Program-made: the position numbers and the translations under genes | Notes under the pieces: generated by a model | Seen by the model: only the letters and a program-made list of their open reading frames with translations | The model's database searches: none | What the model was told of the DNA's origin: nothing | Assembly (NCBI GenBank): GCA_024278345.1 | Contig: JAJRTK010000099.1 | Span: 1 to 41,210, forward strand | Direction: 5' to 3' | Length of the DNA: 41,210 bases | Source of the DNA: a bacterium | Lineage (GTDB): Bacteria > CSSED10-310 > JAJRTK01 | Shown: in pieces, positions 1-37,419 of the stretch | How positions within the stretch are numbered: position 1 is the stretch's first letter | Layout: each line of letters opens with the position of its first letter

Positions 1-1210
1 ACTTCTCAGGCAGCTCTATCAAGATTGGCTCGATGCCCATGGGCCGGGTTTTGTGGGAGAAACCGTCGAGGGAGCCGATGGCGTCGTTCGGCTCGGTGGC
101 CGGTTGCAACAACGGGCTCTTGAGAGCCTGTTTGGGACCGTTCGGGTGAAGCGAACGGCGTACGGTGCGGAGGGCCACGATAGCCTCCGGCCCAAGGCAC
201 CGATTCTGGTCCTGACAGCGGAGGGGAAATCCGTGCCGGTTACGAAGAAAGAGTTGCGGCCCCAAACCCGTCGAGCCGCGGAAGCGAAGGAATCCCAGGG
301 CCAAAAGCCTCCGAAGGCCGGGCAGGTTCAGACGGCCCGCAAACGAGAAGCGATGGTGGCCTCGGTCTACGAGATCGACCGACACGAACGAACAGCGGAG
401 GAGTTTTTGAGTGAACTCCGGCCCGTCCGGGAGGCGACGAAGAAAAAGCGACCCTCCCCTCAAAACAAGGTGGTCTGGGCCTGAAACCTCCCCTCATTTC
501 CAGGCGGAAAGAGGGTTTGGGGGCTCGTTGACCGGTTGAAGGGCGATGAGAGGGGAGGGGCGGCGGACGGAGGGGAACTTACGCCGAAGGCGTGGGTCAT
601 GCCGGCCCGACCGGACCCCAACCAGCAGAAAAAAGCAGTTGTCGGAGTCTTTGACCTGGATGCGTCCCACAAGCAAAAAAAAATGAGGGGATGGCTCAGG
701 GTCTGGGCCAGCCTGAAGAAGGGCCGGAAGAGAGTTATCGAGGAACTCTTTGAGGAGGCCCAAGCCTGGGATCCAGAGCACCGCAAGGAGTGGGTCGATC
801 TCTTCCATGGGCTGAAGCATCCTTTAGACCTTGTGAAAGCCGAAGCCAAGAGGCGTGGCATTCATCTGGTCATGATTCTCGACCTGATGCATGTTTTGGG
901 GTACCTATGGGCAGCAGCCTTTGCCCTTCGCGGCCGAGAGGGGCATTGCGCCCAGGTCCAAGTGAAAACCTGGCTTGCCGTGCTTCTCCGGGGAAAGGCG
1001 AGCCGGTTTGCGGCGGCCGCTATCTGGTCAAAGACCGAATGGAACGGACGGGAGCCTGTTGGTCTCTGGCTGGTGCCGAAGCGATGCTCCAACTTCGGGC
1101 AATTTGGGGCAACGACGACTTTGACGAAACCCGGGACTTCCACGTTGCTCGTGAAGCCCGGAGGAACCATGAGGTGCTCCACAAATCAGAACTCGACTTC
1201 CAGCAGGTGC
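1..1210 (+). pseudogene. Degraded ISKra4-family transposase, left-truncated by window edge
   Basis: Two plus frames together give recognisable pieces of an ISKra4-type transposase. Frame 2 (from base 2) gives an N-terminal part with SLFGTVRVKRTAYGAEGHDSL, then LVLTAEGKSVPV and MVASVYEIDRHERTAEEFL, and after 700 [20 protein letters not shown] and [11 protein letters not shown]. Frame 1 from about 1015 gives [20 protein letters not shown] and the terminal RNH-containing part. From memory of the family, about 90 residues are missing after GHDSLRPKA (near 200). About 60 residues and the reading frame are lost near 990-1015. A small element interrupts the gene at 480-700. The 5' end lies outside the window. 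It is clearly non-functional. No inverted-repeat end was found between 1210 and 1364. Confidence 0.85.
480..700. mobile_element. Family C MITE-like insertion inside the transposase
   Basis: This 221-bp segment starts CCTGAAACCTCCCCTCATTT and ends with its near-complement (681-700), giving 17 of 20 matching positions. The word GTCTGGG flanks it directly on both sides (473-479 and 701-707); the direct repeat can be read up to 10 bp because its last bases merge with the element end. Removing the element and one flank joins codons for KVVWA to SLKKG, the continuous sequence expected in ISKra4 transposases. The insert brings an in-frame TGA at 482-484. It encodes no evident protein. The exact boundary is uncertain by 2-3 bases. 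Confidence 0.75.
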
Positions 1211-15240: not shown

Positions 15241-15468
15241 AATATGGTTCTCGACCTACCGGTTGCTCGCCCCAGCGCCAAAGACAACCGGCCCTACCCC
15301 GCAAAACCGATGTACAACTCCGCTACCCTAATGAAAATGAGCGGCAATTGTCAAACTCGGAATTCTGATCGCGGATGGTGGAGTGAGGCAGTGGGCGGCA
15401 CGTTCCCACCAGTGAGGAGAAGAGGCATGCCTTGGTCATCGTTTCCGACCGCTCTCCCAATGCTCCCA

Positions 15469-15628
15469 ATTGCAACGGGTCCGCGGCCAGACTCCCCTGA
15501 CGACCGCCGGGGAACGCGAGGCGTGACCCTTCGAGTCACGCAAACGTGACCCGCCGAGCGGAGCGAGGCGCTGCTCGGCCGTTTGGAATTCTACAATCCT
15601 TGAAGTGTCCCGCCGTACGTGGATACCC
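15469..15628 (-). mobile_element. Family A MITE, truncated copy
   Basis: On the minus strand, from 15628, the sequence starts GGGTATCCACGTACGGCGGG, matching the end of the intact copy at 25747 with few changes. It continues with the same GCCTCGCT...GCTCGGCGGGTCACG block, the GTCAC/GTGAC palindrome series and finally GGACCCGTTGCAAT. About 40 bases of the intact copy are missing. The match stops near 15469, so the other inverted end is lost. No flanking duplication can be checked. Confidence 0.75.
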
Positions 15629-24683: not shown

Positions 24684-24746
24684 CCTTTGCTTTCTTTGGG
24701 TTGAGTCCGCTCCCGGCGGCGTCCATCCGGCCGACCGCTGCTCGCC
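24684..24746 (-). repeat. Dispersed 55-60 bp repeat, copy 2
   Basis: On the minus strand: GGCGAGCAGCGGTCGGCC, then GACGCCGCCGGGAGCGGACT, CAACCCAAAGAAAG. Nearly identical in its second half to the copy at 26149-26209. It lies between the SDR (24822) and the SGNH gene start (24600). In one frame it reads GSGLNPKK, which gives spurious N-terminal extensions. Confidence 0.7.
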
Positions 24747-25637: not shown

Positions 25638-25746
25638 GTTCTTCTCCAGTCAAGCTCTCTGTTGGCCTTGGTCATGGAATCGGCCACTCGGAGCGGCAAC
25701 TTTTCCAGGAATGCCTGTGGTGAGGGGCGGGGAGTGACCCTGGCAT
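25638..25746. other. Gene-free DNA left of intact MITE
   Basis: Between the SDR start and the element. The word CCCTGGCAT (25738-25746) directly before the element is the left target duplication. No gene or RNA is recognised here. This is part of a 731-base region without genes (25638-26368) that also holds the element, the repeat copy at 26149 and the unknown DNA before the M61 gene. Confidence 0.5.
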
Positions 25747-26041
25747 GGGTATCCACGCAAGGCGGGACATTCCCGGGACTGTGGAATCGCAAGCGTCCGG
25801 GCAACGCCTCGCTGTCGCTCGGCGGGTCACGTTTGCGTGACTCGAAGGGTCACGCCGCGCGTTACCCGTAGGTGGTCCGGGGACGCTGTCCCCCGTCCCC
25901 AGGCAGGACTTCGCCCTGCACCCACCAGGGAGCTCGCAAGGACCCGTTGCAATGAACAGCAACGAGTTCCCCACCCACATTTTTGTGCGCTGCGCGTTTT
26001 CCTTTTGTTTCCAAACTTTGTCCCGCCTTGCGTGGATACCC
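25747..26041. mobile_element. Family A MITE, intact copy (295 bp)
   Basis: The first 23 bases (25747-25769, beginning GGGTATCCACGC) are the exact reverse complement of the last 23 (26019-26041). The nine bases CCCTGGCAT occur directly before (25738-25746) and directly after (26042-26050), a perfect target duplication. Inside are hairpins: GTCACG TTTG CGTGAC and GTGAC...GTCAC near 25827-25856, and GGCAGG...CCCTGC near 25902-25919. No reading frame of note. Two related copies lie at 15469-15628 (inverted) and 41084-41210. By its length, GGG ends and 9-bp duplication it fits non-autonomous derivatives of ISKra4-type elements (family data from memory). Confidence 0.93.
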
Positions 26042-26148
26042 CCCTGGCATCATTCTCTCCGTCCAAAAGTCGTTCGCCGAAAGAAGGCAAGAGCTTTGAA
26101 CGCGTCATGGCCGGCCGGGCTCGGTCAATGCTTCAGGACCCATGGAAA

Positions 26149-26209
26149 GGCGAGTGGCGGCGGACGGATTGCCGCCGCCGGGAGCGGACTCAACCCAAAG
26201 AAAGGAAAG
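26149..26209 (+). repeat. Dispersed 55-60 bp repeat, copy 3
   Basis: GGCGAGTGGCGGCGGACGG, then TTGCCGCCGCCGGGAGCGG and ACTCAACCCAAAGAAAGG. Same order of blocks as the other three copies; closest to 24684-24746. Located about 160 bases upstream of the M61 peptidase. Confidence 0.7.
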
Positions 26210-34748: not shown

Positions 34749-35648
34749 TTGCCGGAGAGGGACCAGAAGCGAAACGGCGGGCTGGCGGTGGTGGTGGTGA
34801 CGTACAACAGCGTTGCCGACATACCGGCCTGCGTTTCCAGTGTTTTAGAGCAGGTGGAAGTGGATGAGCTGGTGGTGGTAGACAATGCTTCGAGGGACGG
34901 CACGGCGGGCTGGCTTTTGGAGCGGTCGGCGGGCGAGGATCGTTTGAAGGTGCTTTTGAACGACCGGAACCGCGGTTTTTCGGCGGCTTGCAACCGAGGT
35001 GCCGGCATGGTCCGAGCCGGAGTTCTTCTTTTCCTCAATCCCGATTCAGTACTCCTTCCGAAATCGGCGAATTGCCTCCTGGACGCATTTGAAAACGATC
35101 CTAAGACCGGCATTTTTGGACTCAAGGTGTTCGACTGGGATGGCGTTACGGTTCAACTTTCCTGTCGGGCATTTCCGAGCCATGGGACGGTCTTTTTTCA
35201 CCGCTATTCGCTCTTGACGCGTCTTTTTCCGGGGAACCCTTGGTCCAGGAGATATCTTTCCACCGCTTTTACTCACAAGACCGCTGAGCGCTTTGATTGG
35301 GTGTCGGGGTGTGCCATGGGAGTGCGCCGAAATGTGTTTCAGGAGCTTGGCGGTTTTGATGAGGACTATTTTCTTTTCAGCGAGGATGTAGATCTCTGCA
35401 AAAGGGCTTGGCAGCATGGGTTCGAGGTGAGGTATCTCCCCTCCGCCAGGGTGAGGCATCGGATTGGGGGCTCCAGCCTTTCGGCGCCGGCAAAAGTCAT
35501 CATCGAGCGGCACCGGTCGATGTGGCTCTACTATAGGAAGCACCTCCGCGGAAGCTTGTTCCTGGACGCCGGAACGTGGTTGGGTATTTATGCTCGATGT
35601 GCCCTGGTTCTGTTGCGCTCGCTTTTTTCCCGGAGGAGTGGCCCATGA
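34749..35648 (+). CDS. GT2 family glycosyltransferase
   Basis: Likely start TTG 34749, with GGAGG eight bases before, identical in spacing to the next gene; a GTG at 34674 is the longer option but overlaps repeat-flanking DNA. The catalytic start is VVVVTYNSVADIPACVSSVL, then VDELVVVDNASRDGTAGWLL (nucleotide-binding Asp), LLFLNPDSVLLPKSA (DxD equivalent NPDS) and SEDVDLCKRAWQHGFEVRYL (acceptor/base ED). This is the rhamnosyl/galactofuranosyl-type GT2 set. It transfers a sugar to a polyprenol-linked chain, donor unknown. The C-terminus overlaps the WecA-like start (ATGA). Confidence 0.88.
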   Translation: MPERDQKRNGGLAVVVVTYNSVADIPACVSSVLEQVEVDELVVVDNASRDGTAGWLLERSAGEDRLKVLLNDRNRGFSAACNRGAGMVRAGVLLFLNPDSVLLPKSANCLLDAFENDPKTGIFGLKVFDWDGVTVQLSCRAFPSHGTVFFHRYSLLTRLFPGNPWSRRYLSTAFTHKTAERFDWVSGCAMGVRRNVFQELGGFDEDYFLFSEDVDLCKRAWQHGFEVRYLPSARVRHRIGGSSLSAPAKVIIERHRSMWLYYRKHLRGSLFLDAGTWLGIYARCALVLLRSLFSRRSGP

Positions 35649-36862
35649 ATCTATTGGCCTTTTTCGTGGCTCTCGTCCTGAGTTTTTTACTGACACCTCT
35701 TGTCTTCGTGGCGCTGGAAAAAGCGAAGATCCTTGACCATCCGTCGGGCGGCAGGAAGATCCACCGGAGGCCGATTCCCGTTGGTGGGGGTGTGGCGATC
35801 TATCTTGCGTTTTTTGGGGCCATTGTCTTGCTTGCGCCGTGGCAGGAGACGGCGCTCCTTGAAGTGGACACGCAGATGCTGGGGCTTGTTCTTGCGGCGA
35901 CGTGCCTTGTCGTCGCGGGGTTGTGGGACGACGCACGGGGGATGAAGCCTCGGCGCAAGCTGCTTGCGCAGGCGACAGCCGGGTGGCTGCTCTTCACTTT
36001 CGGCTTCCGCATTGGCGTGGTGACGAATCCGCTTGGCGGACAGATCATCCTTGGTTGGTGGGATCTGCCCCTGACGGTGTTGTGGGTCGTTTCTCTCTGT
36101 AATGCCATCAACCTTATCGACGGGCTGGACGGGTTGGCTTGTGGTGTTGCCGTGATTGCGGCAACCACGTTGGGGCTGATTGGCATCTATCCGGCGGACT
36201 ACAGCAGAGATGCCCCCTTTCTTTGTTTTGCCCTGGCGGGGGCGGCCCTTGGGTTCCTTCGCTTCAACTACCATCCGGCGAAAGTCTTTTTGGGGGACAC
36301 AGGGTCGATGTTGTTGGGGTTGCTTCTGTCGGCCATAGCTTTGACCAGTGCTCGGAAGAGCTCGACGGCCATTGCGCTCTTGATGCCTTTGGTGAGTCTG
36401 GGAGTTCCGGTGATCGACACGCTTCTGGCAATTCTCCGCCGCGCAATTTCGGGAAGTGGCATCTTTACGGCCGATGGGAAGCATCTCCATCACCGTCTTC
36501 TCAAGCTTGGCATCAGCCACGAAGACGTCGTGAAAGTCTTTTATTTCATCAGCGTGTGGTTGGGTTTGGTAGCCTTCATGTTTGTGTTGATTCCCAACCA
36601 ATTCGCGATCATTGTGTTTGGGGTCTTGGGGATGGGGCTGCTCTTTGCCATCAAGAGCCTTTCTTTTCTGGAAGCTGTGGTCCACGGTCGTCCACACCCA
36701 CGTTCGGTGCCTCTTTCAGCGCCGCTTCGGTGGTTCAGCCGGCGCGTTTTGGAGCGGCCGGCGGCACTCCTTGAGCGTTGGAGCCGCCGCGTCCTGAAGT
36801 GCGAAGAGCGGGGCGCAACGCGTGAAGGAAAGAAAAGAAGGGGACCTATCAGATCCGGTTGA
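35645..36862 (+). CDS. WecA/TagO-type undecaprenyl-phosphate sugar-1-phosphate transferase
   Basis: ATG 35645 overlaps the GT2 stop, with GGAGG eight bases upstream. About eleven spans. Catalytic motifs: ILDHPSGGRKIHRRPIPVGG, LWDDARGMKPRRKLLAQ (DD-containing), NAINLIDGLDGLACGVAVIA (the DGLDG motif), FLGDTGSMLLGLLLSAIALT (magnesium-binding), and HLHHRLLKLG (HHxHH-type). This is the WecA/TagO subgroup rather than MraY. It places the first sugar phosphate on undecaprenyl phosphate, starting surface polysaccharide synthesis for the flanking ligase and GT2. The final codons (REGKKRRGPIRSG) lie in an inserted element: the stop TGA at 36860 belongs to it. Without the insert the end would read REGKKRSSSTG. 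Confidence 0.9.
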   Translation: MNLLAFFVALVLSFLLTPLVFVALEKAKILDHPSGGRKIHRRPIPVGGGVAIYLAFFGAIVLLAPWQETALLEVDTQMLGLVLAATCLVVAGLWDDARGMKPRRKLLAQATAGWLLFTFGFRIGVVTNPLGGQIILGWWDLPLTVLWVVSLCNAINLIDGLDGLACGVAVIAATTLGLIGIYPADYSRDAPFLCFALAGAALGFLRFNYHPAKVFLGDTGSMLLGLLLSAIALTSARKSSTAIALLMPLVSLGVPVIDTLLAILRRAISGSGIFTADGKHLHHRLLKLGISHEDVVKVFYFISVWLGLVAFMFVLIPNQFAIIVFGVLGMGLLFAIKSLSFLEAVVHGRPHPRSVPLSAPLRWFSRRVLERPAALLERWSRRVLKCEERGATREGKKRRGPIRSG

Positions 36863-36993
36863 CAACATCACCGCTGGGGCGGGCCTCCTTCCCGGCTCCG
36901 TGCAGCCGGAGGGCGCTACACCGGCAAGATGCCGGTGCCACCGTTTCGGCGAAGAAAATTGTAAAGCAAAAACACGACAATTTGATAGGTCCC
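36841..36993. mobile_element. Family B MITE-like element (153 bp)
   Basis: Begins GGGACCTATCA (36841-36851) and ends TGATAGGTCCC (36983-36993), a perfect 11-bp inverted pair extending to 14 bp with one mismatch. The eight bases AAAAGAAG stand directly before (36833-36840) and after (36994-37001), a target duplication. Inside are two hairpins (CTCCGTGCAGCCGGAG region and CACCGGCAAGATGCCGGTG) near 36895-36935. No frame of its own. It overlaps the last 22 bases of the WecA-like gene and supplies its stop codon. Only one copy is in the window. Transposase partner not seen. Confidence 0.85.
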
Positions 36994-37419
36994 AAAAGAA
37001 GTTCGTCAACGGGCTGACCGGTGAGCTATGAACGGTGCTTCACGATACTATGAAAACAGCTTCATAGTTTCCGCAGCCCCGGACCCCAGGTTTTCTAAGG
37101 GGGACTTGCGCAGGAGCCCTTTGTTTCTAATGGGGAATGGCGAGAGGCCAGGAAGGATCAGTGGAGTTTTCCAGGAATCCGCCGTGGATTTCAGCGAAGG
37201 CGGAATGCCAGGCGATCATTGTGTCCCATGTTTTTTAACGCGTTGTTGTCTTGGGTGAAAAAGAGCTCGTGGGTTGGGGCTGGCCAGTTCCGAGGCGTTT
37301 TCGGTATGAAACTTGCTTTACCCATCTGTGTAGTGGAGACCTTTGCGCGAGATGCGAAAAGGCGTCCACTCCCTCGGAGGGAAGGATCCTGGAACCCACT
37401 GATGTTGGAGGTGACGGCG
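36994..37419. other. Gene-free region before the TadE-like gene
   Basis: About 425 bases. It contains the right target duplication of family B, a perfect 8-bp stem (37047-37068) that may end the polysaccharide operon, and open but poorly protein-like sequence before the TadE-like start at 37420. I looked for a c-di-GMP riboswitch pattern and did not see one. No promoter is convincing. Confidence 0.4.
37047..37068. terminator. Possible terminator hairpin
   Basis: ACTATGAA, loop AACAGC, TTCATAGT: eight perfect pairs followed by TT. The stem is AT-rich and the T-run short, so it is only a candidate for the end of the polysaccharide transcript. Confidence 0.3.

Follow-up and report, generated by a model that had tools for sequence, protein, structure and literature searches.

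An intact copy of a high-copy, protein-less MITE family, probably mobilised in trans by an ISKra4-type transposase

Is the 295-bp stretch with inverted ends, lying between two divergent genes of this bacterial contig, a mobile element, and if so, what moved it? The window analysed here is the whole contig (G000:C17 of the source assembly), 41,210 nucleotides long, and its features are collected in Table 1. The perfect 23-bp inverted ends and exact 9-bp duplication described in the original prediction were confirmed on the sequence: the arms are 100% complementary over 23 nt and are separated by 249 nt. Searched at 0 mismatches, the end pattern matched the window four times and 100 shuffles not once. 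Two further copies had been claimed for the window, and both are genuine relatives of the focal element (83% and 86%), but neither is complete, one being truncated and the other cut by the contig end. The 295-bp stretch is thus an intact copy of a high-copy, protein-less MITE, hereafter family A.

Table 1. Positions and strands of the mobile-element features annotated in the 41,210-nt window.
Feature	Position	Strand	Basis
Decayed ISKra4-family transposase gene, interrupted by an internal stop and with a divergent middle part; candidate remnant of the mover type	2..1116	+	NF033572, best E 4.7e-13, under the curated cut-off
Truncated family-A copy, single end (15606-15628)	~15463..15628	-	Family copies span 166 bp of it
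Left copy of the 9-bp target duplication, CCCTGGCAT	25738..25746	.	Sequence; other copies have freely varying left flanks
Intact family-A MITE, 295 bp, gene-free	25747..26041	+	Inverted ends and family alignment
Left 23-bp terminal inverted repeat, GGGTATCCACGCAAGGCGGGACA	25747..25769	+	Same as consensus from 180 sampled ends
Mosaic interior: L1, 23-bp GTCACG repeat, GGGGACGCTGTCCCC stem, CCCGTTGC/GCAACG stem (variant c), R1	25770..26018	+	Alignment
Right 23-bp terminal inverted repeat	26019..26041	-	Complement of left arm
Right copy of the target duplication, CCCTGGCAT	26042..26050	.	Sequence
Intact family-B MITE, GGGACCTATCA.. ends, exact 8-bp duplication AAAAGAAG	36841-36993 (with duplications 36833-37001)		
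Family-A copy interrupted by the contig end	41084..41210	+	End pattern and similarity

The source is a metagenome assembly of 6.06 Mb in 550 contigs, 87.9% complete, and the family-A end pattern matched it 398 times with at most 2 mismatches, while the reversed control gave 0. The possibility that no other copies with the same ends exist in the genome is therefore decisively ruled out. BLAST of the element against its own genome returned at least 98 matches, counted from the 40 candidates scored out of 577 first picked up. Ends and pairs were sampled in 0.98 Mb, almost all of it from contigs with family-A matches. This sample held 180 ends (at most 3 mismatches) and 37 MITE-sized pairs, and most of the 23 end positions were 94-100% conserved. 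Exact duplications flanked 15 of the 37 paired copies (8 bp long in 10 cases and 9 bp in 5), whereas shuffling predicts 0.4, and the 15 duplications are 15 different target sequences. The unpaired ends belong to nested, truncated or diverged copies, or lie at contig edges. A search for empty sites within the genome, using joined flanks, returned self-matches only. With hundreds of copies, conserved ends and these duplications, the earlier view that the sequence represents a mobile non-autonomous family and no chance hairpin was borne out. Family A is short and multicopy, has terminal inverted repeats, lacks a transposase gene and shows many independent duplications, as expected of the MITE class.

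One or two scattered end hits with 1-2 mismatches were present in 20 of 385 other genomes; these look like chance, with a frequency little above that of the reversed-pattern control in the same table. The full element had no match in 59 other genomes, nor by BLAST in plasmids and phages, and an end scan of viral contigs gave 0 matches.

Which transposase moved the family is suggested by the ends and the duplications. Prokaryotic Mutator-like (p-MULT) elements have ends of 18-39 bp with a terminal cytosine and generate duplications of 8 or 9 bp (PMC3942029). Among them, the ISKra4-family ISs (p-MULT 4; ISKra4, ISMich2 and ISAzba1 groups; PMC3942029) share with family A inverted ends that start with GGGT. 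The ends of family A fall within the 18-39 bp range of p-MULT 4 and begin with G, and a duplication length varying between 8 and 9 bp points toward this transposase family. Elements located by profile search in other genomes were similar: G054 contains 1,227-bp ISKra4 copies with GGGTGCATCTCAGTTAGGCG ends and 8-bp duplications, and in G038 a 1,831-bp copy has GGGTGTGCGACAAATTTGTGG ends and is flanked by a 9-bp duplication, both sets of ends starting with GGGTG. The same-phylum genome G003 carries a 1,655-bp ISKra4 IS with perfect inverted ends (GGGTGTCCGTCCGGAATACCGGACT), in a copy without a duplication, together with two 307-bp elements (L175 and L179; contigs C16 and C108) whose ends are near-identical to those of the IS and which are flanked by exact 8-bp duplications. 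The family-A end resembles the G003 end variant GGGTGTCCATCCGGAATGTGGGACT (p = 5e-5, keeping the first four bases constant and uncorrected across the nine sequences compared) and, more weakly, the end of the intact G003 IS (p = 0.015, likewise uncorrected across nine). The stronger match in G003 is thus to the variant end rather than to the end of the intact IS.

Within the genome of the focal element itself, ISKra4 is the only p-MULT type that was detected (profiles: ISKra4 and IS256-type). The ISKra4 profile found decayed pieces only in this 87.9% complete assembly, namely the remnant at 2-1116 of the window and others on contigs C481 and C464. Beside the three remnants, A-type ends were matched at chance level only, and a search of the intervals between A-type ends, extending to 4 kb, uncovered no autonomous element, the longest interval being 517 bp. 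A possible end, GGGTAGCCCC, upstream of the C464 remnant was tried as an A-type end and rejected, since it is not significantly similar to family A. Because only decayed ISKra4 pieces are present here and none carries an A-type end, we infer the mover from its footprint and from end similarity. On these grounds, family A was probably moved in trans by an ISKra4-type (Mutator-like, p-MULT 4) transposase. Such a transposase, supplied in trans, would recognise and bind the 23-bp ends, which start with GGGT, and would insert the element elsewhere through cuts staggered by 8 or 9 bp, giving rise to duplications of the same lengths. The autonomous copy may no longer exist, or, being multi-copy, may have dropped out of the binned assembly.

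An alternative is that family A is a genuine MITE whose mover belongs to another family producing 8-9 bp duplications (another p-MULT type, e.g., IS256 or ISLre2, or an unrelated DDE transposase) and is absent from the assembly. We regard this as possible but rather unlikely. It would be in keeping with the failure to find an autonomous partner with A-type ends in this genome, and multi-copy ISs are often missing from binned assemblies. Against it, the A ends resemble ISKra4 ends from the same phylum. An IS256-derived element is disfavoured, as no IS256-type transposase (PF00872) was matched in this genome, the assembly of which is incomplete. The DDE_Tnp_1 and ISAs1 profiles detected one fragment, on contig C373. 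This fragment (L082, 1-265) is the C-terminal part of an ISAs1-family transposase at a contig edge, and the ends of the element lie outside the assembly. Its presence would favour a mover of another family, but ISAs1 ends begin with CAGGG. An ISAs1 origin was therefore discarded: no CA precedes the GGG of family A, and the left flanks of its copies finish in many different bases.

Alignment of the 37 copies revealed left modules of more than one type, a 23-bp GTCACG repeat that some copies lack, differing GC-rich stems and three kinds of right module, which occur in about 30 combinations (these calls are approximate, and some right ends fit two types). The focal copy combines an L1 left side with an R1 right side, and R1 is otherwise mostly paired with L2 (L068, L126, L127). 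Gaps aside, the focal copy shares 94-95% identity with its closest sampled relatives, and it is thus no fresh duplicate of any sampled copy. A recent insertion, as originally proposed, is in line with the intact ends and duplication, but these roughly 95% identities and the mosaic interior fit it less well. For the family as a whole, the closest ungapped pair among the sampled copies is 98.8% identical, which suggests that family A may have been active fairly recently. The core of the right module (CCACAT..TTTGTGCGCTGCGCG) is also present in family C, whose ends differ.

Such mosaics may have arisen by recombination or gene conversion between copies. A more far-reaching idea is that hairpin modules are exchanged among copies, and even between families A and C, forming a recombining, cassette-like repeat system that works via the transposase or homologous conversion, with the stems kept for an RNA or DNA role; we consider this speculative and doubtful. 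The focal interior folds as RNA with z -6.93 when the ends are included and z -2.81 when they are left out, and an Rfam search of the element gave nothing reaching the gathering score. Two overlapping, weak terminator-like stems lie inside the element, near the level of shuffled sequence, and a simple scan of the surroundings of the insertion yielded no promoter-like site beyond chance expectation. The stem-rich and mosaic interiors, together with the many truncated or nested copies, would also be expected if the family had spread mainly by recombination, or as REP- or ERIC-like structural or regulatory palindromes, with transposition ancient and now irrelevant. However, the 15 exact duplications of differing targets, together with ungapped pairs reaching 98.8% identity, imply that the family transposed in the not too distant past, which makes this account very improbable.

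Family A is accompanied in this genome by at least two further MITE families with 8-9 bp duplications: family B, with 289 ends and a length of about 154 bp, and family C, with 244 ends, a length of about 200 bp and ends GGCCTCGGTCATGGTACCGGCCAC (e.g., L101 2873-3072). In the window, the ORF at 35576-36862, coding for a family 4 glycosyltransferase, terminates inside the family-B MITE, which thus seems to be the source of its last codons and stop. Ends of A, B or C were found on 72 of 124 sampled contig edges compared with 23 of 372 random internal windows, a figure biased upward for the edges because most contigs were picked for carrying A copies. The three families are probably behind much of the fragmentation of the assembly. 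A chance hairpin or an assembly artefact, which the 550-contig metagenome assembly and the repeat-laden contig edges might bring to mind, is ruled out by the absence of the end pattern from shuffles and from the reversed control and by intact copies with distinct exact duplications (15 of 37 pairs) inside many contigs.

Locally, the divergent genes that flank the focal element encode a short-chain dehydrogenase and an M61 peptidase, and neither gene is interrupted by the insertion, given its position between them. The best named matches of the M61 peptidase gene are 42% identical and are spread over several phyla. A short repeat, TCGGCGGCAATCCGTCCGCCGCC / GGGAGCGGACTCAACCCAAAGAAA, adjoins the focal element (24685-24733 and 26161-26209) and also occurs at L059, L061 and elsewhere in the genome. 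A decayed, family-C-like end (GGCCTTGGTCATGG..TCGGCCAC) adjoins the focal and the truncated A copies at 25660-25690 and 15429-15448, respectively. The arrangement may hint that repeats cluster in the same intergenic gaps.

Our results link family A, by footprint and end similarity, to the ISKra4 transposase family, and define a MITE family of very high abundance from a lineage that has been little sampled. A limited literature search found no description of a MITE attributed to the ISKra4 family. The 307-bp elements of G003 and the intact ISKra4 IS beside them offer a ready pair for a cross-mobilisation test, and with a single long-read genome, MITE mosaicism could be tested on the reassorted interiors. 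Compared with ISKra4 ISs of about 1.2-1.8 kb (sizes measured in G054, G038 and G003), family A is only 295 bp long and has no transposase gene, and its partner IS was not found. The G003 elements are like it in their MITE size, ISKra4-type ends, exact 8-bp duplications and lack of an obvious gene, but they have a different interior and few copies, and share their genome with an intact ISKra4 IS whose ends are closely similar. The Chunjie MITE of Geobacter uraniireducens (reviewed in PMC10969869) is similar in its length of 178-235 bp, conserved ends, duplications, size-variable interiors and many partial copies, but is present as 38 full and 57 partial copies; the likeness is one of description rather than of compared ends. 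Correia, ERIC and QMITE elements (PMC10969869) are likewise palindromic and protein-less and reach tens to hundreds of copies in a genome, but differ in ends and hosts, a distinction drawn from descriptions rather than alignment. The Tn3-derived TIMEs (PMC4133298) are also protein-less, measure about 262 bp and have conserved core segments proposed to shape transcripts, whereas their ends are 38-bp Tn3 ends, their duplications are 5-6 bp and they are usually single copy. Among these systems, family A stands as a new MITE family of a familiar type, unusual in its copy number, in the three families resident together and in its mosaic interiors.
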